From Psococerastis gibbosa (Eukaryota > Arthropoda > Insecta > Psocodea > Psocidae): DNA of 64,000 nt. The position numbers and the translations under genes were made by a program. The stretch lies in NCBI GenBank assembly GCA_963971405.1, contig OZ020486.1:21661419-21725418 (forward strand), in the 5' to 3' direction. The notes beneath the pieces were generated by a model. The model made no database searches, was not told where the DNA came from, and saw only the letters and a list, made by a program, of their open reading frames with translations. Shown in pieces: positions 29,267 to 62,178 of this stretch (within the stretch, counting starts at the first letter, position 1; each line of letters starts with the position of its first letter).

Positions 29267-31380
29267 TTAAAATAAAGCGAACGTTGCTTTCCTCACTTGA
29301 TTTTTTTTTATAAAGTCATTTACAATGGGTCTTAAGTCTAATGCATCTAGTTCCAATTGGTGCGCATTTAAGACAGCTAGATGATTCAGCCTAGCCTGCC
29401 CCATAGTGGACCGAAGATACGTTTTCAGACGTCGAAGTGAGCTGAACGACCGTTCAGCGGTTGCTGTCGTCACTGGAATGGTCCGGAGGATTTTAATGCT
29501 CTTTGTCACTTCCTCAACTAGATCTTTTATACTTCCTTCTTCTACGAGAAATTTTCTTACGTCACGCATCGTGGTGAGTGAGATCTTCCGTTGCTTAGAA
29601 ATATCATGTAGCATTGACAGATGTAGGGAGAGTCTTCCAATGTCTATGTCATTACAAAAAAACTTTTGTGCATTTTCCAACGAGGAAATGCCTTGGGCCA
29701 CAAAAGATGCAAGCTCTTCTTCCACAGCAACAACAGTATTAAGGGAGGATGTCTCAAAGCGCCTCCTTAAGCACATCAAAACTGTGTCGCATACCTCTAT
29801 GTACATCTGCTTGAAGTAATTCTCTGCTCCTGTAAATTCGTGTCCTTGTCCTGCACCACCACAACTTTCCAATTTTTTTGGAATACGCCGTTGCCTAGGG
29901 AGTTCGGGATTGCCGACGAACTTCATCCTTTCTGTCTCCTCCAGGCACTGATCCCAGAATTTCTTATACTCCTCACGCCTTGCCGTCATAATGGCTATGA
30001 GAAAATCAATCTTCGCCTTAATTTCTGCCGCGCCGATATGGGGCGATTGTATTTGTGCGTTAACTTCTTCAAGTGGAGTCATTATTTTGCTGTACAACAA
30101 AAGATGAAAAAATGTTTTAAATGACTCCATTTGGTGGAGATATCCCGAGCACTTCGCAGCTGCGTCTGACGTATCATTTTCGGAAAACTCTTCGAAAAAA
30201 ATTGCGATTTTTTCTTAATGCTTTAAAATTTTGTTGATACTTGAAGCTCTCATCGTCCATCTTGTAGGACATAGGGGACGTAGAGTTTTGATAGGTTTGG
30301 CATTACCTGGATCTGGGATATTTTTAAACATTTCCATACGCTTTGGTGATTCTCTGATAGTATTGATTAGGTCTTTGGCTAAATTCATAATGTCTCTCAT
30401 ACAAGGGAGGTGCTTTAAGCTATCTTCTACAGCTAAATTAAGATTATGAGCGGCACAATGTACATACATCGCTTGTGGTTGTAAATCAGCAACAAGTTTT
30501 TGCAATCCATTGAATTCCCCTCGCATTTGAGAAGCCCCATCATAGCACTGACCCCTAAGCTTGGAAAATGGCAACCCTAATCGAAGAAAAATGTCTTTGA
30601 CTATCTCAAAAAGAGTTTGTGCCGTGGTATTCGGAGCCGCATACAAGCCTACGAAGTCCTCAAAAATATCCATATTGTCATCCACTGTTCGCAAACAAAA
30701 CGTTACTTGCTCATGAACTGATATGTCTGTAGTCTCGTCCACCATAATGCTAAAATAGCCTCTATTCATTGCCCCTTGTACAACATTCTCCAAAACAGAG
30801 CGGCTCAACATTTCCACTATCTCGTTTTGAATATCGTGAGACATCCAGGTGTATTTTTTAGCTTTATGGCCTAACCACTTTTGCATTTCCGGGCAATCAT
30901 CTTTTCTCAAATTGACCAGTTGCCAGAAATTTGAAGAAACGTCTTCATGGCCGCGGATGGCCAACCCTTGCCGACAAAGAAATCTCAAAGAAGAGAAGAG
31001 GCATAATAACGCTGAACGGGCACTCCTCATCTCGTTGTTCAAATTCTCATTTAGAAGTGTGGATACATTTACGTTTTTCCCCGTTTTAAGAACGCTTTCT
31101 CTATGCGAACCACTATTTTCGTGCTTTCGAAAAGTTGCTGTAGCATTTTTCCAGTAGCTGAATCCTTTTTTTGTGAAAGTCTCCTCCTTCAGTTTACATA
31201 AAATTAACAGCCCATTACTTTCAGCTTCCTTACATATTTTGCAAAACACTAGTCCTCGGGAATACTCCATCCAAGGGTACGTTTGAAGCCATGATTTATT
31301 GAATCCCCTTCGCTTAACAGCATTCTTATTTCCCGAAGAAGAATTTGGAATCGTAGCTTGCGTTAAGGCAGTTCCTGGGC
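29267..31380 (-). CDS. hAT transposase, main exon (one in-frame stop)
   Basis: This exon follows a TTCAACAG acceptor at 31388-31381 and completes a glycine codon begun in the previous exon. With exon 1 the protein is 739 residues long. A TTF-type zinc finger has C82, C85, H122 and H128. The RNase H-like core shows the first catalytic Asp in SIMVDETTD (D250), the second in QCYDGASQM (D316), the C-x2-H pair in VHCAAHN (C344, H347) and the conserved W in CPTRWT (W410). The C-terminal part holds the third acidic residue in TATAERSFSSLRRL (E678) within the hAT dimerisation region. Codon 424 is TAA (30217-30215). The frame before and after it is the same and open, so a single point change could account for it. 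By family role the enzyme cuts and pastes the element by DDE chemistry in the nucleus. Confidence 0.9.
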
Positions 31381-31839
31381 CTGTTGAATAAAAAAAAATA
31401 TATATTGCAGATATATTATGTTCTTTTAACACATATCTCATCGAGGCTTCTTGACCAAAAAGTGCTTAAAATTGTAACTGGAGAAATAACTGTGCAATAG
31501 GGTTAACTGCTACGATTGGCCGTAGTCATGACTATATTTCGGAGGAGGTTCAGATTTCAGAGGTATGGGTCCACCCAGCCCCAAACAATTTTAAACTGTA
31601 TGTAACGTGTCATTACGAGGTCCTGGCTAAAGCTATCTGCTATCCTGCTATATCACGACCAGCTTTTTAGACTACACTATTGATTCTTCCCTATAAATCT
31701 CCCATTTAATTAATGGCAAGCATATTATTTCCATGTATACCTTAAACTGGACGTTAAAAAATAGTTCATATATGTAGTAATTTCCCCTTTTTTTAACAGT
31801 CAATAAATGTTGACACATTTCCATTAATTGATTACCTAC

Positions 31840-35169: not shown

Positions 35170-36372
35170 GTTCCAAACTTTAGCCTAAATTTTCTCGAAT
35201 GTTTATTTTTGTGACTCTGAATCAGAGTATCGCACTCTATTTCATATACGTATACTCTACAAATTGGAAGTCACGGAAGAACGCAAAAATACTCTTTTTC
35301 TGGAACAACAAAGAACCGAAAAAAAGAACCGGTCCGAGTTTACTCGAACATGCTTTCCAATTTATCAAAATTAGTACATAGAGAAAATGAGAATTACATG
35401 GCAAATAATTTTCCTATGGTTAAAATTCCGATGCCTCAGGGGGGGGGGTGTGACCTGACGTCACTGGAGGGGGGGGGGAGTGTGTCCTGACGTCACTGGA
35501 GGGGGGGGGGTTGAAAAATAGGAGAGATAAATTCTAGATAGGTCAGACCAACACATTACCACACAGCAATAACGGCAGAGCACGCAATGCATTTGAGCGT
35601 GAATTTTCTACAAATAAAAAAATAATTTTTTTGCACAACACCAAATAATTTTTTGGGAAAGCAACCTGTCCGGTTTCGTTACTCAAACACCTAAAACATG
35701 CCTGAAGGTAGAAATCATTGATAGAAAGGTTTCGCAGAAAATTTATTTTTTAATCATTTTTCATTAAAATTTAGTTATTTTTATTTTTTTACCCCCTAAA
35801 GCAAACTATCAAGGGGCAAGCGACCTCACGCATTTTGTCAACATTAATAACGACTACAATATATGTGAATTTAAAAGAAATCGTTGGAGCAGTTTTTGAG
35901 AAATAATTTCTTTAGACGTTTTTTCGAGTTTTTTTGAGAATAAAACCCCCCCAAATCGAGTTAGCCCCAAATTAAAAATTAAACATTCTGAGGTATGATT
36001 TTTGTAAACCTACATGCAGAATTTCATCAAAATCGGCCGAGTAGTTTGCCCGGAAATCGAGAAATAATTTCTTTAGACGTTTTTTTCGAGTTTTTTGAGA
36101 ATAACACCTCCCCAAATTGAGTTAGCCCAAAATAAAATAAAAATAGTCCCGAGGTATGATTTTTTTTAAACCTACTAGCTAAATTTCATCAAAATCGACC
36201 GAGTGGTTTGCCCGGAAATCGATGAACAGACAGACATACAGACAGACATTTCGTAAAAACAACTTTTTTTGGGTTCCTAGTACCTCAAAACGTGTAAATC
36301 CGTTGAAATCTCGGTATCGAAAATTTCGACCATCACAAAGCTTTCCTTATGCTACGTATAAATTGGAAAGCC
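35170..36372 (-). repeat. interspersed repeat family A, copy 4 with internal duplication
   Basis: This is the longest copy, reversed relative to the others. It runs from GCTTTCCTTATGC at about 36337-36349 through CCCGGAAATCGATGAACAGA down to GAACCGGTCCGAGTTTACTC at about 35328. A 160-bp segment is tandemly duplicated (35899-36059 and 36060-36222), each copy starting GAAATAATTTCTTTAGACGT. GACGTCACTGGAGGGGGGGG is also repeated at 35458-35512. Confidence 0.75.
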
Positions 36373-40574: not shown

Positions 40575-42263
40575 TTATATATCAAAATGTAGAGGAGTAT
40601 TTCTTCTAATATCTTCTTTTATGGCTCCACAATGGATATTTTATATGAAAAAAAAGAACACGTAGTGGGGGTATCCGCTTTTCTCTTTGGTGTCTTTTTA
40701 TTCTTTTTTTTTCTTTTAATGGTTAATCGCGGACAAACAATTTAATGAATGTAGCCGATTAGCCTCTTCAATCGCCTCACTAACTAACCTAAGTACTTGT
40801 GTCGAGTTACGACACGACTCTGATCGCAAGGTGTGCCGAGACTCGCACAAGTACAAGCAAGCTACCATCTTGCCACTGAAGTCGCTTAATTCATTAGAAG
40901 ACTAAAAGCGGTCATTGGTTAGTATTATTGTAAACTGTCTTATTCTAAGCTTGGATCTTTATCTAGACCTACCTACCAGGCCCTCGTTTTTCTATGCCTG
41001 TGCAAGTAATTCTCAAAACTGGTAGATATTCTTCAACATAGGTACAACTATCGATGGGTTAGACTGCTCATTTACGTGATACCTACCCATCCAACAACTA
41101 GTCGAACAACACGGTGAGGACCACTTTATAAGGCGTTGACCTTATGCCGCGGAAAATATAAGCTTTAGGGAAGAGTAAGCCTACCCATACTTTCTAATTT
41201 TTCATACACATTGATTTGCCATTCTGAGACTTACTCCTTAATCAATCCCTTTTTCTAAGAAAACATTTCCCCATATTTCTAGCACACAAATTTTCCTGTC
41301 AAGTTACGAGTTTCCAGTAAAACCAGTAAAAATTACCTTAAGAAAATCCAGCAAACCTCCTAATTCCAACCAGTGCATAAGCTTTTATTGGTAAAAATAA
41401 TAAACCTGCGAGGAAATTTAGGAGGTCATTGACTTTGTTGAAAATTTCGCAAGTCTGATATTTTATGTAATAGTTGGCAGCATTGTGGTCACGATTACTT
41501 CCTATAGGCTATAGCCTCTACGGATGGTTTCCTCTTGGTCAGATTGGCGGGCGGACATCCATGCCAACAACCGGCTTCAACTTACAACACTGTGGTTCGA
41601 TGACTTCATTTCACCCAATAGTCTTCCCCAGCATGCTAAACAAGGTTTTCGTAGCTGGGGGTGCGTTCGAAATAAGGAGACAGTCAGCGATTTAACGACA
41701 CTATAAATGGCCATAACATAACTCGGAACTTGTCAGTTATTCTTCGTACTTGCAGCCCGTATGGGGCCTTAGCACGGACAATAAAACCAACATAGATTTC
41801 TCGACACCTCCTATAGGGAAATTCGCTATAGTGAGGGGCAAACATTCCATGTTGCACTGTTGCGTAACGATTCATCAAATAAATAAAACTCAGTCTGATA
41901 AAATGGAATAACGTGGTGTTTAAAAGAGTGGCACCCATATTGACCTAGGAGTGAGTATCTCTATTTTGACAGGGGGTCATTGCACTGGGCTGTGATTAAC
42001 TTATGGGTGGGAGATATGAATGAGGAAGTGGAGTGTTGCGCCGGCCAGCATCTCCTCAGAAGCGTGCCTTCAGGGGGCCAGCCATGATTCTTCTTCACAA
42101 GTTATCAAGCGGTTTCGTAATTCGAAAACCTGATCAATGGTTAAAGGCAATCTTGAAAACAATACTGAATTGTGTAAGGTCAGCCACCTCATCATCCCCC
42201 TTCCCTCTTCAACTATACTATACCTCATTACCTATATTAACAGGCAAACTAACACAAAGGCAA
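40575..42263. other. unassigned stretch
   Basis: No exon or shared repeat recognised. Short open frames near 41474-41706 overlap one another and look random. Confidence 0.4.
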
Positions 42264-42678
42264 ATTTAACAAAGGGTTAGTTGGACTTACATTTCCTGCT
42301 GAATTAATAGTAATTAGAGGCATGGGCCCCCTAGTCATCGAACAATTAGGGCGGAGCCCATTGTCAGGGGAAGGGGCCGAAGGGGGTGAGGGCCGTGGTC
42401 GAGTGGTTAGGGAGCTTGCACTTCAATCGGGAGAACGGTAGTTCAAATTCTCAGGGGGATCAGATTTACTCATTATTTCAGAGTAGAATAAAAGAGCAAT
42501 GAGTCAATCGTCCAGAAACCATCAGGCCCTATCTGGACTAAACCATCAGCCCTTCTGAAGACAGCCTGATGATGGGAGTAGTACCCTTTCCCGAAACGTC
42601 ACCCACTTCCCCTTCCTCTGCCTCTAATGACTATTAACTCAGCAGGCAATGTAAGTCCAATTAACCCTTTGTTAAATA
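42264..42678. mobile_element. family M inverted-repeat element carrying a SINE
   Basis: Ends of about 60 bp, ATTTAACAAAGGGTTAGTTG through TAGAGGCA, are mirrored at the right (TGCCTCTAATGACTATTAAC through CCCTTTGTTAAAT). The ends are also found at 57257-57420 and 60909-61093. The middle is occupied by a tRNA-like repeat (42387-42600). Confidence 0.75.
42387..42600 (+). repeat. tRNA-Leu/Ser-like SINE nested in family M
   Basis: GGTCGAGTGGTTAGGGAGCT and TTCAATCGGGAGAACGGTAG, followed by TTCAAATTC, read like a class II tRNA: A box, long arm, then a decayed B box. The body ends CTGATGATGGGAGTAG and CCCGAAACGTC, a phrase common at the 3' end of invertebrate retroposons. Confidence 0.65.
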
Positions 42679-43300
42679 GTATTACACAATTGCCATTAAC
42701 CTTTTCCAATAAATTACAAAGGTAAATTTCTTGTCTGATATAAATTCAGATAGCAATTGAGTAGAAGAAAAGATCCTGTGCATTTTAATATTGTGAGAGT
42801 GCCACTAATACCACTTGTTTACAGTTTAGCTTTGCACTTTTTCACACCTTCAAAAACTCATATCAAGCTGATCCTGTGCACTTCACAACGCTTAACATTG
42901 GGTTTCTTTGATAAGGCACAACGTTAACTAAACCGTTTGTGTCAATCAAACCTGAACCATAAGGCTTAGGTTTAAATTTAGCTTATACAGTATATCTATA
43001 CATTTGAAAATTCCGTGATACCTGTCTACTCACCCCTTGAAACCCCTTTTTCTAAAAAAATTTCCGAAAAATATTTAATGCTACCAAAAGATAGTTTGGC
43101 ACCAACTTCCTTATCAAATGTTTTACCACATAAAAAAATTACTCACAATAACCGAGACAAAATAATGGGTCTGTAACACCCGGTATATATGGGTTGTTAT
43201 TTGTAGTTCTATTTTTGTATGTGGTTTGGGTAAAAGAAGAAATCATAGCAATAATCAAAAGTAACTTTACTAAAAGAAACATGTTTTTTACGACTTTTAT
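42679..43300. other. unassigned stretch
   Basis: Nothing recognisable apart from AT-rich sequence. Confidence 0.4.
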
Positions 43301-56599: not shown

Positions 56600-57255
56600 T
56601 GAGTAAGCTACAACTCATAATTTTTAATTTTCATATATTTATAGCCTAATTGCGGCTCAGATCACTAACCTTAATCTGCAAAAGCAATTGAAATTTAACT
56701 CTTAACCTTTTTTAGTTTTTACAGTGGACTAGCTGACGGAGCTAACTCTCAATTAGGTACCAATTTTTTACATTCGAAATTACTATACCACTGAATCGAA
56801 AAGGATGGATCCGAGGAAGCATATACTTACCATACACTTAAGGGTACCTACACTCTACAGTATGTAAATAATTGTAACAAGTCCACCCACGATAATTTGG
56901 AGTCTTCAAAATAGTAACTTCTAGTCCTCAACACTCACGCACTAGATTGCTACCCCACGCAATAGACAATTTCTTCGAGGAGATTTTTTAAGAATTATAG
57001 ATTGCTTTGTCTGTTAAGAGCAACAAATCGAACAGTCTCACTACGCTTTTTTTACAAAGTCATATTACATTATAGAGCCCTTAGAAGGATTACTCCTCTA
57101 CGTTTTGATATTGTTATACTCCACTAACACCGATGTACCACAATTATTGTTATTGGTTGGTAAGGAACGGACACTCCGGACAGTGAAGGTCTCGGGTGGC
57201 TGGAATTAAAAAAAGTGTGGCCCATCAGTAATAGGTAAAGGCTAATGACGTAATA
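56600..57255. other. unassigned stretch
   Basis: No gene or repeat recognised. Confidence 0.4.
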
Positions 57256-57256
57256 T

Positions 57257-57420
57257 TATTTAACAAAGGGTCAGTTCGACTTACATTGCCTGTTATGCTA
57301 CTAGTCATTAGAGGCAGGGGTCTCTCAGTCATCGAATAATTAGGGCGGAGGAATCATCAGGCTTAGTCCTGAGACTCATTGCTCTTGTATTCTTCTCTGA
57401 ATTACTGAGTAAATCCAATC
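57257..57420. repeat. family M element, left-half copy
   Basis: ATTTAACAAAGGGTCAGTTC, TTACATTGCCTG and TAGTCATTAGAGGCAGGG match the left end of 42264-42678, and TGAGACTCATTGCTCTTGTA resembles its SINE part in reverse. The right end is lacking. Confidence 0.6.
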
Positions 57421-57896
57421 CACTTGAGGATGCGAAGATTGCGAACTGCCGTTATCCGGATTGGTAGTGACGGTAACATATACCTTCTATGTATAGGAAT
57501 ATTGCTTCTAAGTGCTGTGACACTAGTTCATGAGAAACTAATTTCAATAGTCTTTTGTAACTTAGAAAATACCACTACTATTGGTAAATAGAGCCTAGAG
57601 GGGACTCAGGGCTCAAGCCTGCACTCAAGAGGGGGGGGGGCAGTCGATAACCCCCCCCCTTGAAAAAATATTCCGAACCTTCCTGTTTGGAGTCATTTCA
57701 ACGAGTCATGGAGTGTTCAAATTTTTAAACCCTCTTTTTCGGGCTTTTTTCACATATCCCCCCTCCCCGGCCCCGTCTATTCGCAGTTATGGGAATCTTC
57801 ATTGGTAAAATCTAATCCTTAATGCTATCCAAAAGCGTAAAGCTCAACTTGTTCATCCCTATTTTTTTAACTGCACGTGTATAGCACTATTACCTG

Positions 57897-58579: not shown

Positions 58580-58586
58580 TATAAAA
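58580..58586 (+). promoter_or_regulatory. TATA box of the tal/pri-like gene
   Basis: TATAAAA lies 33 bp before the A of an ACAGT initiator-like site at 58611-58615 (A at 58613), which is close to the usual arthropod TATA-to-start spacing. The first peptide frame starts 53 bp after that point. A second TATAAA occurs farther upstream near 58349 and may be unrelated. Confidence 0.6.
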
Positions 58587-58610
58587 CAGCACGCCTGTCT
58601 CCCGGTGCAA

Positions 58611-58615
58611 ACAGT
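58611..58615 (+). promoter_or_regulatory. putative transcription start (ACAGT initiator)
   Basis: ACAGT fits the arthropod initiator pattern (T/A)CAGT and is at the right distance from the TATA box. Without transcript data this remains an inference. Confidence 0.45.
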
Positions 58616-58665
58616 CTTTTCCGTTCCCTGCTTCCGAATACTAGTACTACAGTTCAGCAATCAAC

Positions 58666-58698
58666 ATGCAGGGGCTCGATCCTACCGGTCTTTACTGA
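58666..58698 (+). CDS. tal/pri/mlpt-like micropeptide 1: MQGLDPTGLY
   Basis: This ten-residue frame ends in LDPTGLY. LDPTG-x-Y is the defining heptapeptide of the peptides made by tarsal-less / polished rice (Drosophila) and mille-pattes (Tribolium), which translate several such peptides from one mRNA. In Drosophila they bind the E3 ligase Ubr3 and let the proteasome trim Shavenbaby from repressor to activator, controlling leg, trichome and segment patterning. The start context TCAACATG is close to the arthropod optimum. The frame is far below normal gene-finder limits. A second frame with the same heptapeptide begins 60 bp after its stop, on the same strand, and a TATA box lies just upstream. 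Two independent heptapeptide matches, each placed right before a stop codon, are very unlikely by chance. Confidence 0.85.
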   Translation: MQGLDPTGLY

Positions 58699-58758
58699 AA
58701 AGTGCCTTTAAAGTTTCAACCGAAATTTTATCCAGTTTCAAAAAAATATTTTGCGAAA

Positions 58759-58806
58759 ATGGAGTCTAAGCCCGTGAAGCACCTCGACCCCACCGGTCTC
58801 TACTAA
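58759..58806 (+). CDS. tal/pri/mlpt-like micropeptide 2: MESKPVKHLDPTGLY
   Basis: This fifteen-residue frame again ends in LDPTGLY followed directly by a stop (TAA here, TGA in peptide 1). The start context GAAAATGG is strong, with A at -3 and G at +4. The shared heptapeptide codons differ from those of peptide 1 at three third-codon positions and nowhere else (GAT/GAC, CCT/CCC, CTT/CTC), so the protein is kept while the DNA has drifted. N-terminal residues differ between the two peptides, as is usual in this gene family, where only the heptapeptide is conserved and required. The spacing, 60 bp after the first stop with no other start codon between, fits reinitiation on one mRNA. I leave the gene symbol empty because the species name of the locus (tal, pri or mlpt) is not determined. 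Confidence 0.87.
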   Translation: MESKPVKHLDPTGLY

Positions 58807-58842
58807 ATACCCTATATGTGCCCGCTGTGGATGTGAAGGACT

Positions 58843-58920
58843 ATGCGATATAACCGAGCACCTCTTCTGCAGGCGTTGGTGATAATAAAGAAGAAGAAGA
58901 AACGCAAATGGAGCGTTTGA
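58843..58920 (+). CDS. candidate third frame of the tal/pri-like mRNA (25 codons)
   Basis: A 25-codon frame starts MRYNRAPLLQALVII and goes on to a lysine-rich run and a final KWSV. It lacks LDPTGXY. Known tal/pri/mlpt mRNAs often carry one further frame without the heptapeptide, so it is in a plausible place, but I see no sequence evidence that it is translated. The lysine run comes from an AAG microsatellite, and an AATAAA lies inside the frame. It may be non-coding. Confidence 0.25.
   Translation: MRYNRAPLLQALVIIKKKKKRKWSV
58884..58889 (+). terminator. possible poly(A) signal AATAAA
   Basis: AATAAA lies 78 bp after the stop of micropeptide 2. If used, the mRNA would be only about 300 nt. 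A strong 5' splice site (AAG|GTGAGT, intron from 58970) stands 80 bp further on and argues that transcription may instead continue and be spliced. Confidence 0.35.
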
Positions 58921-58959
58921 TGACATGGAGCCTGCGAGACTGACCATTTTATCTGTCAA

Positions 58960-58975
58960 TGTTTGTAAGGTGAGT
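58960..58975 (+). promoter_or_regulatory. possible 5' splice site after the micropeptide frames
   Basis: TGTAAG|GTGAGTTTC is a close match to the donor consensus, with the intron starting at 58970. It may end the first exon of the tal/pri-like transcript, in which case more peptide frames could lie downstream. No partner acceptor was identified. Confidence 0.4.
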
Positions 58976-60560
58976 TTCTTTAAATCAGCTGTTAGAATAC
59001 GATATGAATCAACCGGCACGATCAGCTGTTTGAATAGACCGGCCTGTGTATGTCTATTCATGCTGGTTCGCAAGGATTTTCTTGTCATCAAAGTCAGTTC
59101 CTTTTTATATTTGTTGTTTAATCATTAGTATGACCAAATACCGGCTTTTATTAAATGAGATCAAGCCTCTATTTTGATACAGCTGACCTTTTTTGAATCC
59201 ATATGATAACATGACAGAAAAACGGTAATTCTTTTAAATTGCAATAGGTTTGTAAACCATCTCTTTTGCCTCTTAATTCGATAGCCGTAGGTCTTTACAG
59301 CCAAAACTGTTGAAGTAGAAGAAGGTAAGGGTTATTTTATAAACTAGCCTGTGCTGCTGCTTAGACAGTAGCCTAATAAAACTTATCGAACTAAAACTTA
59401 TAATTTGCATGGTTGGCTCGCGGAGCGTTTTTTCAACTCACTCAAAACGTAAATTTTTCTGTTGTTTTGTGTATAGGCATTGACATCGGCGTTTTATATA
59501 ATTTAATTACCATAGCTTATAAAATATTCATCACTATCATTTTATTGTAGTTATACCCAACTGTGAGTCGGTTGAAAGAATGGAAAGAAAGAAAATTGTC
59601 TTTTTCTATTTCCCATTTGGGCGAATTTTTTGGCCTTTCGGCATTCGGCCCACAAGTAACTCATCCTTGGAGCAAGTTTTCTTCCCCCTATAGCCTGTTT
59701 TTAACCCATAAATCTGCTGTTATTGTATTGAGATTAGTGAAAACCATCTATACCTATATCGCTTACAGCAAGTGCGTAAACCATGCTTCACCAAAGTTTG
59801 TAGAAAATATTATACAATGTAGAAGAGTCCTAGAAATATATCCCTGCCTTAAGTGCCTTTTCCCTTGCCCAAGGAGTTACCTCCTTATTTTGCTACCCCT
59901 ATTAATGAAAAGTAGTTTAGTTTAGCCAACGCCCGTCTGTGGCAGTTGGGCCATTAGACGCCGAGCCTCCCAGATTAATGAAAAGTATATCTGTAAGAAA
60001 TGATGAACGGCCCCCTCCATATACCAATGCATGGCGGTTCCGTGCAGTGGTGCAGTATTCTTTTCTGAGACATTTTAAGCTATAATTGGTCTATATTTGC
60101 CAACATTGGTCAAAATGGTCTATGGCGCTGGTTTTATTTACTAAAGCATTGTATGGGCTCAGCGGCGTATATATAAATTTTTTTCGATCGTCTCCAGCTC
60201 GTCTCTAGCTACCAACTTCCAGCCTCGGGACCGAGTCATCGTTACAACAATTCTACCGATAAAACCGCTTACCGCTCACTGTTAACCCGACCATCAATTC
60301 GATCAGGCAAATAATGCATTACAGCAACTCATATTAGTTAATTTCGTCTTACTTTCTCCCATTTCGCGAGAAAAATTAAAATATAAAAAAGCGTGTACCG
60401 GTATTTGACACCTATGTTTTCAAAATTTTCTCTCGGTCTCCCCACTTCCTCCGTCACTATGACAGTAAATAAAACTAAAAGCCGTTTGTTTAGTCCTCTT
60501 CAAAGATAAAATTAGAATACTTGATGTCTAGCCACAAGCTAAGTACGGCAGACAGTTGTG
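58976..60560. other. unassigned stretch downstream of the micropeptide gene
   Basis: There is no further LDPTG-encoding sequence on either strand here. A 120-codon open frame at 59563-59925 matches nothing I recognise and lacks domain features. A GTATATATAAAT box at about 60167-60178 precedes sequence of lower AT content and could be a promoter. Confidence 0.35.
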
Positions 60561-60908: not shown

Positions 60909-61093
60909 GTAGGGTTAGTTGGACCTATGTACATTGTCTGCTGTGTTAATAGTCATTAGAGGCAGTAGCCATCAAAAAATTAGGGTGGAGCCAATTTTCG
61001 GAGGAAAGGGGCCAATTGTTCGATGACTATGAAAACCTTGCCAACTATTAACACAGCAGGCAATGTAAATCCAACTTGCTCTTCGTTAAATAG
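60909..61093. mobile_element. family M element, compact copy
   Basis: AGGGTTAGTTGGACC and TTAATAGTCATTAGAGGCAG on the left are mirrored by AACTATTAACACAGCAGGCA and CCAACTTG on the right. This copy has no SINE inside, which shows the element's plain form (about 185 bp). Confidence 0.7.
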
Positions 61094-61840
61094 TATTACA
61101 CCATTGCCATTAACCTTTACCAATAGATTAAACATATTGGCTCGGAGTTGGGTTTGTTTCCAAGACAATCCAATCTTTTTAGCTTCATTGTGGGTCCATA
61201 TTCCATCACTAAAAACTGCTCTGTCCTCGGTACCTCATGAAGGTGAAGGTCTAATAAGTTGCAAATGCCCATATTACAGTGTAGGGGACCAAGTGTCTGC
61301 GCTGCAATACAATTTAGTATAGGCCCAGAGTGAAGCGCCTGGTTATTCAGTTAGTGCGCGCAATTTCGGCGATTTCAAAACATTACCACAATCCCCATTG
61401 TCCCCTTGATTGTTTAGTGGCTTTGTTTTAATGTTTCTATCCAAAATGATGCAACGGATGAGTGGCCAGCTACTATTCTTGAGCTGATGCAATTATGAGG
61501 TTCAGACTCAGTTTCCACTCTCAGGTTACCCAACTCTTTCGTTTCTCACTGGACATCCCGTGTCTTGCTAAACACTGACCGGATCACGTTTATTCCGTTT
61601 TTTACTCACTGCAGTCAGCTGTTCTTGTAGACGAAGGTTTGAGAACATGGTGATGACCTACTTAGTTATTGGAACAAATTTATTATGCCCGCTTCTGACG
61701 AAAAAATATTTTAATTCTCTTGCAAATAGGTATGGCAACATAATAACAAGGATACATTTTATTTTGTGCATCCTTGTTCTTTTGAATCAGCGAAAAGTGC
61801 TATACGATTTTTTCTATCAAATTAACTACAAAAGGCTTTC
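61094..61840. other. unassigned stretch
   Basis: No gene recognised. A short open frame at 61647-61898 overlaps the next repeat and looks random. Confidence 0.4.
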
Positions 61841-61844
61841 ATGG

Positions 61845-62178
61845 CCGGAGTCCGATGATGAATCTGTAAAATCCGGGCTGATGGACCGTGGTCGATAAAA
61901 GTGTACTTCCAAACGATTCGCCAACATTTGGGATTGACATCATCAGTGGTACCACGTAGACGTCTAGAAGATTGTGTCTCGTAGGTTCAGTTCAGTCTCC
62001 GAGATACAACCTTAGAAGTCTCCGAGATACAACCTTAGAAGTCTCCGAGATACAACCTTAGAAGTCTACGTAGAACAACCAAGATGTCAACCGCTGATGT
62101 TGCCGAAACGTTTGGAATTACGAATTCTCGATCAACCAACTTCACGGATTCTACTGCTTCATTATAATAGTCTATGGT
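61845..62178. repeat. palindromic repeat with three 23-bp tandem units
   Basis: Outer inverted segments include TTCCAAACGATTCGCCAACA (61909-61928) and TGTTGCCGAAACGTTTGGAA (about 62098-62117), and outside them GATGGACCGTGGTCG against CTATGGTCCGTCAC. The centre carries AGTCTCCGAGATACAACCTTAGA three times in a row (61995-62063 approximately), flanked by decayed units. Confidence 0.65.

Follow-up and report, generated by a model that had tools for sequence, protein, structure and literature searches.

The locus beginning at position 58580 of the analyzed window (the whole 64-kb stretch of DNA) very probably contains exon 1 of the arthropod gene known as tarsal-less / polished rice / mille-pattes (tal/pri/mlpt), and it most likely represents an arthropod orthologue of this gene. 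A polycistronic gene of the tal/pri/mille-pattes type had already been proposed in the initial annotation. The proposal is supported by the frames, by their silent divergence, by the TATA box and initiator and by the splice donor: the locus fits the family because two LDPTGLY motifs directly abut stop codons and diverge by silent changes only, because a TATA box and an initiator are suitably spaced ahead of them, because no additional ATG interferes and because the top-ranking donor follows. Genes of the tal/pri/mlpt kind are well described. The features of the locus are compiled in Table 1.

Table 1. Features at the putative tal/pri/mlpt locus (positions refer to the window).
Feature	Position	Strand	Basis and remarks
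TATA box (TATAAAA)	58580-58586	+	sequence; its first T is at position -33 when the A of CAGT is +1
ACAGT initiator-like element	58611-58615	+	sequence; predicted start 58613
Predicted first exon	58613-58969	+	357 nt; predicted start to donor AAG/GTGAGT
smORF 1 (ORF1)	58666-58698	+	MQGLDPTGLY, 10 codons, stop TGA
smORF 2 (ORF2)	58759-58806	+	MESKPVKHLDPTGLY, 15 codons, stop TAA
Candidate smORF 3	58843-58920	+	25-aa lysine-rich MRYNRAPLLQALVIIKKKKKRKWSV; lysines from GAAGAAGAAG run; unproven
Candidate smORF 4, start (MEPARLTILSVNVCK)	58925-58969	+	reads into the splice donor; unproven
5' splice site GTGAGT (predicted)	58970-58975	+	rank 1 of 3424 GT sites
Second candidate 5' splice site (AAG/GTAAGG)	59325-59330	+	rank 2 of 3424 GT sites
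Possible downstream exon	61615-61898	+	83-aa frame 61647-61895, then stop; unproven

A six-frame search of the window disclosed exactly two LDPTG sites, which share one frame of the + strand and start at 58675 and 58783. Each of them reads LDPTGLY with a stop directly after it, which bears out the two same-strand frames of 10 and 15 codons described initially. ORF1 and ORF2 are separated by 60 nt, their motifs start 108 nt apart, and both fit inside the one predicted exon on a single strand, where one RNA could carry them. The start contexts, which had been rated as good, contain an A at -3 in both cases (ATCAAC-ATGC for ORF1 and GCGAAA-ATGG for ORF2). Counted from the predicted start, the two start codons are the first and second ATG, respectively, and there is no other ATG ahead of ORF1 or between the frames. 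The claim that LDPTG-x-Y is a hallmark of the family also agrees with the literature, which gives LDPTGXY as the core common to tal/pri/mlpt peptides (PMC6124123, PMC8435736, PMC3136413, PMC11475943). In this family, a single RNA carries a varying number of short frames with LDPTGXY (PMC6124123), and the gene is conserved among insects and present in crustaceans (PMC11475943).

The 24 nt encoding LDPTGLY and the stop codon are identical at 20 of 24 positions between the ORF1 and ORF2 copies. All four differences (GAT/GAC, CCT/CCC, CTT/CTC and TGA/TAA) are silent or exchange one stop for another. In a simulation of 200,000 trials, which assumes that both copies share descent, four random substitutions kept peptide and stop in 0.22% or 0.29% of the trials, depending on the starting copy. 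Since peptide-preserving changes are so rare by chance, the silent-only divergence suggests that selection has acted at the level of the peptide and not of the DNA.

The TATA box and the ACAGT initiator, which had been reported to precede the frames, are both present at the spacing given in Table 1. TATAAA occurs 61 times on the + strand and 52 times on the - strand of the window (113 in total), and four TATAAA/[TA]CAGT pairs spaced by 28-35 nt were detected including the one at 58580. The other three pairs start at 41702 (+), 59338 (+) and 59341 (-). Because two of these three are also located near the locus, the pair taken alone is weak evidence. Within 59338-59370, near the second donor and approximately 0.75 kb downstream of the 58580 pair, TATAAA/ACAGT pairs reside on both strands. 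As pri is an ecdysone target, the window was also searched for the consensus of the ecdysone response element. There were 52 strand-wise matches with at most two mismatches, the nearest of which, at 56659, precedes exon 1 by about 1.9 kb, and the result was uninformative.

Donors were scored with a hand-typed consensus matrix at all 3424 GT sites of the + strand. By this measure, the first exon most likely ends at 58969. The second candidate donor, 355 nt past the first, may end a small second exon, for which candidate acceptors lie at 59285 (rank 204 of 3301 AGs) and 59301 (rank 441). Another candidate acceptor at 61615 has rank 42 of 3301. Compared to the donor, the acceptors at the locus are less clear. 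When the window was searched with 58580-58990, no significant second copy emerged (best other match E 0.074).

In addition to the two candidate smORFs listed in Table 1, the interval between ORF2 and the donor contains four ATG frames of at most 11 codons, which close within the exon; none of these additional small frames had been noted in the initial annotation, and the longest closed ATG frame of the predicted exon 1 comprises 25 codons. Candidate smORF 3 gave no match in NCBIfam. Joined to three candidate acceptors, the frame starting at 58925 would encode 16, 20 or 27 aa. Its 67-codon read-through form crosses the best donor and was set aside; a Pfam search with this form yielded no match. 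The length of the 83-aa frame in the possible downstream exon is not telling by itself, because the window harbors 24 ATG frames of at least 83 aa, including this frame and the transposase. No Pfam match was obtained for it. In NCBIfam it hit a bacteriocin immunity family with E 0.0031 and 17.7 bits, below the cutoff of 45, which was taken as chance. A C-terminal peptide with GREETSSCRRRR, described for some insects (PMC6124123), was not found in the predicted exon 1 by a short-fragment search. The sequence SCSCRRR in a downstream frame (61617-61637) was unpersuasive as such a peptide. We consider it rather unlikely that the locus belongs to a spliced, extended mlpt gene whose RNA also encodes the lysine-rich 25-aa peptide and the 83-aa peptide of a later exon. 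If it did, the two peptides would be lineage-specific additions to a polycistronic micropeptide gene.

The micropeptide exon is flanked by repeat pieces at 57231-57463 and 60911-61130, to which a related copy exists at 42264-42716 (approximately 72-89% identical). On the - strand, a hAT-type transposase (29270-31465) consists of two successive stretches of one frame with a stop between them and matched the Pfam families DUF4371 (E 1.2e-23) and Dimer_Tnp_hAT (E 1.6e-8). Tandem repeats were found at 61994-62080 (23-nt unit, 3.8 copies) and 35898-36222 (162-nt unit, two copies). A 149-aa open stretch (437-883, - strand) gave acyltransferase matches below cutoff in Pfam and NCBIfam and no match in PDB; presumably it resembles the acyltransferase part of AUP1. 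Nothing was found by Rfam at gathering thresholds, and ARAGORN did not detect any tRNA.

A decaying or extra tal/pri/mlpt copy, with the active one residing elsewhere in the genome, would be compatible with the flanking repeats and the interrupted transposase, as well as with just two LDPTGxY frames and no clear C-terminal peptide. We nevertheless judge this very unlikely, since the frames, their starts and stops, the TATA box, the initiator and the donor are all intact, while the purely silent differences suggest that the peptide is under selection. Moreover, a retrocopy is expected to be devoid of promoter and donor, whereas promoter-like elements and a donor are present here. Even less credible is that about 24 nt were duplicated locally within an unrelated leader, without any peptide function. 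The high identity of the two copies would suit this reading, but the four differences are silent or stop-for-stop, an outcome reached by chance in 0.2-0.3% of cases, and the motif is the core published for a known family (PMC6124123). That two unrelated tiny frames merely happen to read LDPTGLY can be practically dismissed even for a motif of seven residues, as the single-base composition of the window (not a shuffle) predicts 9.4e-5 LDPTGxY-stop motifs for the two strands of the window together, and 5.1e-8 for a further LDPTGLY-stop within 600 nt, and as the DNA of the copies is nearly identical with silent changes only.

The comparison collections comprised prokaryotes, viruses and phages. 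In a background scan, the DNA form CTN-GAY-CCN-ACN-GGN-CTN-TAY-TRA matched two stretches in the genome contig collection, and the form allowing any sixth residue matched two stretches in the viral contig collection. Each of these four loci has a single LDPTGxY in the DNA at hand, and we took the matches as chance. No phage sequence was matched when 58580-58990 was run through blastn.

Returning to the first exon of a tal/pri/mlpt gene as the preferred reading, transcription from the TATA box would yield an RNA whose leader is 53 nt long and which carries both micropeptide frames. ORF1 and then ORF2 would be translated in turn, probably by scanning and reinitiation, given the very small size of each frame and the lack of any further ATG ahead of or between them. 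Like their Drosophila relatives, MQGLDPTGLY and MESKPVKHLDPTGLY may bind the ubiquitin ligase Ubr3 and activate it, upon which the proteasome would trim Shavenbaby/Ovo and convert it from a repressor to an activator. Insects use this switch in segmentation and in the formation of legs and cuticle. We infer that the locus is transcribed and spliced, that reinitiation takes place and that the peptides act through Ubr3 and Shavenbaby; for the last point, the Mlpt/Ubr3/Shavenbaby mechanism described in PMC6428570 serves as the analogy. Functional peptides produced straight from tiny frames have their textbook example in tal/pri/mlpt, a gene that standard gene finders can overlook. With a copy at hand that comprises promoter-like elements, both frames and a donor, the mlpt/Ubr3/Shavenbaby switch becomes testable in the source species, as do the number of LDPTGxY peptides and the existence of lineage-specific peptides on the same RNA.

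In Drosophila, polished rice / tarsal-less likewise contains several very short LDPTGxY frames on one strand. The cited passages report four peptides with LDPTGQ(T)Y, 11-32 aa long, compared to two predicted LDPTGLY peptides here, and mention LDPTGXY peptides only, with no GREETSSCRRRR peptide among them (PMC3136413, PMC8435736). They also describe Drosophila pri as a single exon (PMC3136413), whereas a strong donor follows the exon of our locus. In Clogmia, tal contains LDPTGXY frames of 10-29 aa, spaced by 111-334 nt (PMC6124123). The likeness to our locus lies in the short LDPTGXY frames; Clogmia, however, possesses four of them and a 39-aa C-terminal peptide (PMC6124123), while the two frames found here are 60 nt apart and are accompanied by no clear C-terminal peptide. 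For hemipteran mlpt (Oncopeltus, Gerris and Rhodnius), an extra peptide of approximately 80 aa is reported, whose frame (smHemiptera) has a conserved 14-residue core (PMC7606980, PMC11475943); the 83-aa frame of our locus comes near to it in length. Among the records listed in PMC6428570, a Nasonia record contains five peptides and an Oncopeltus record bears the name millepattes peptide 1 and peptide 2, to which the two LDPTGLY peptides predicted here may be compared.
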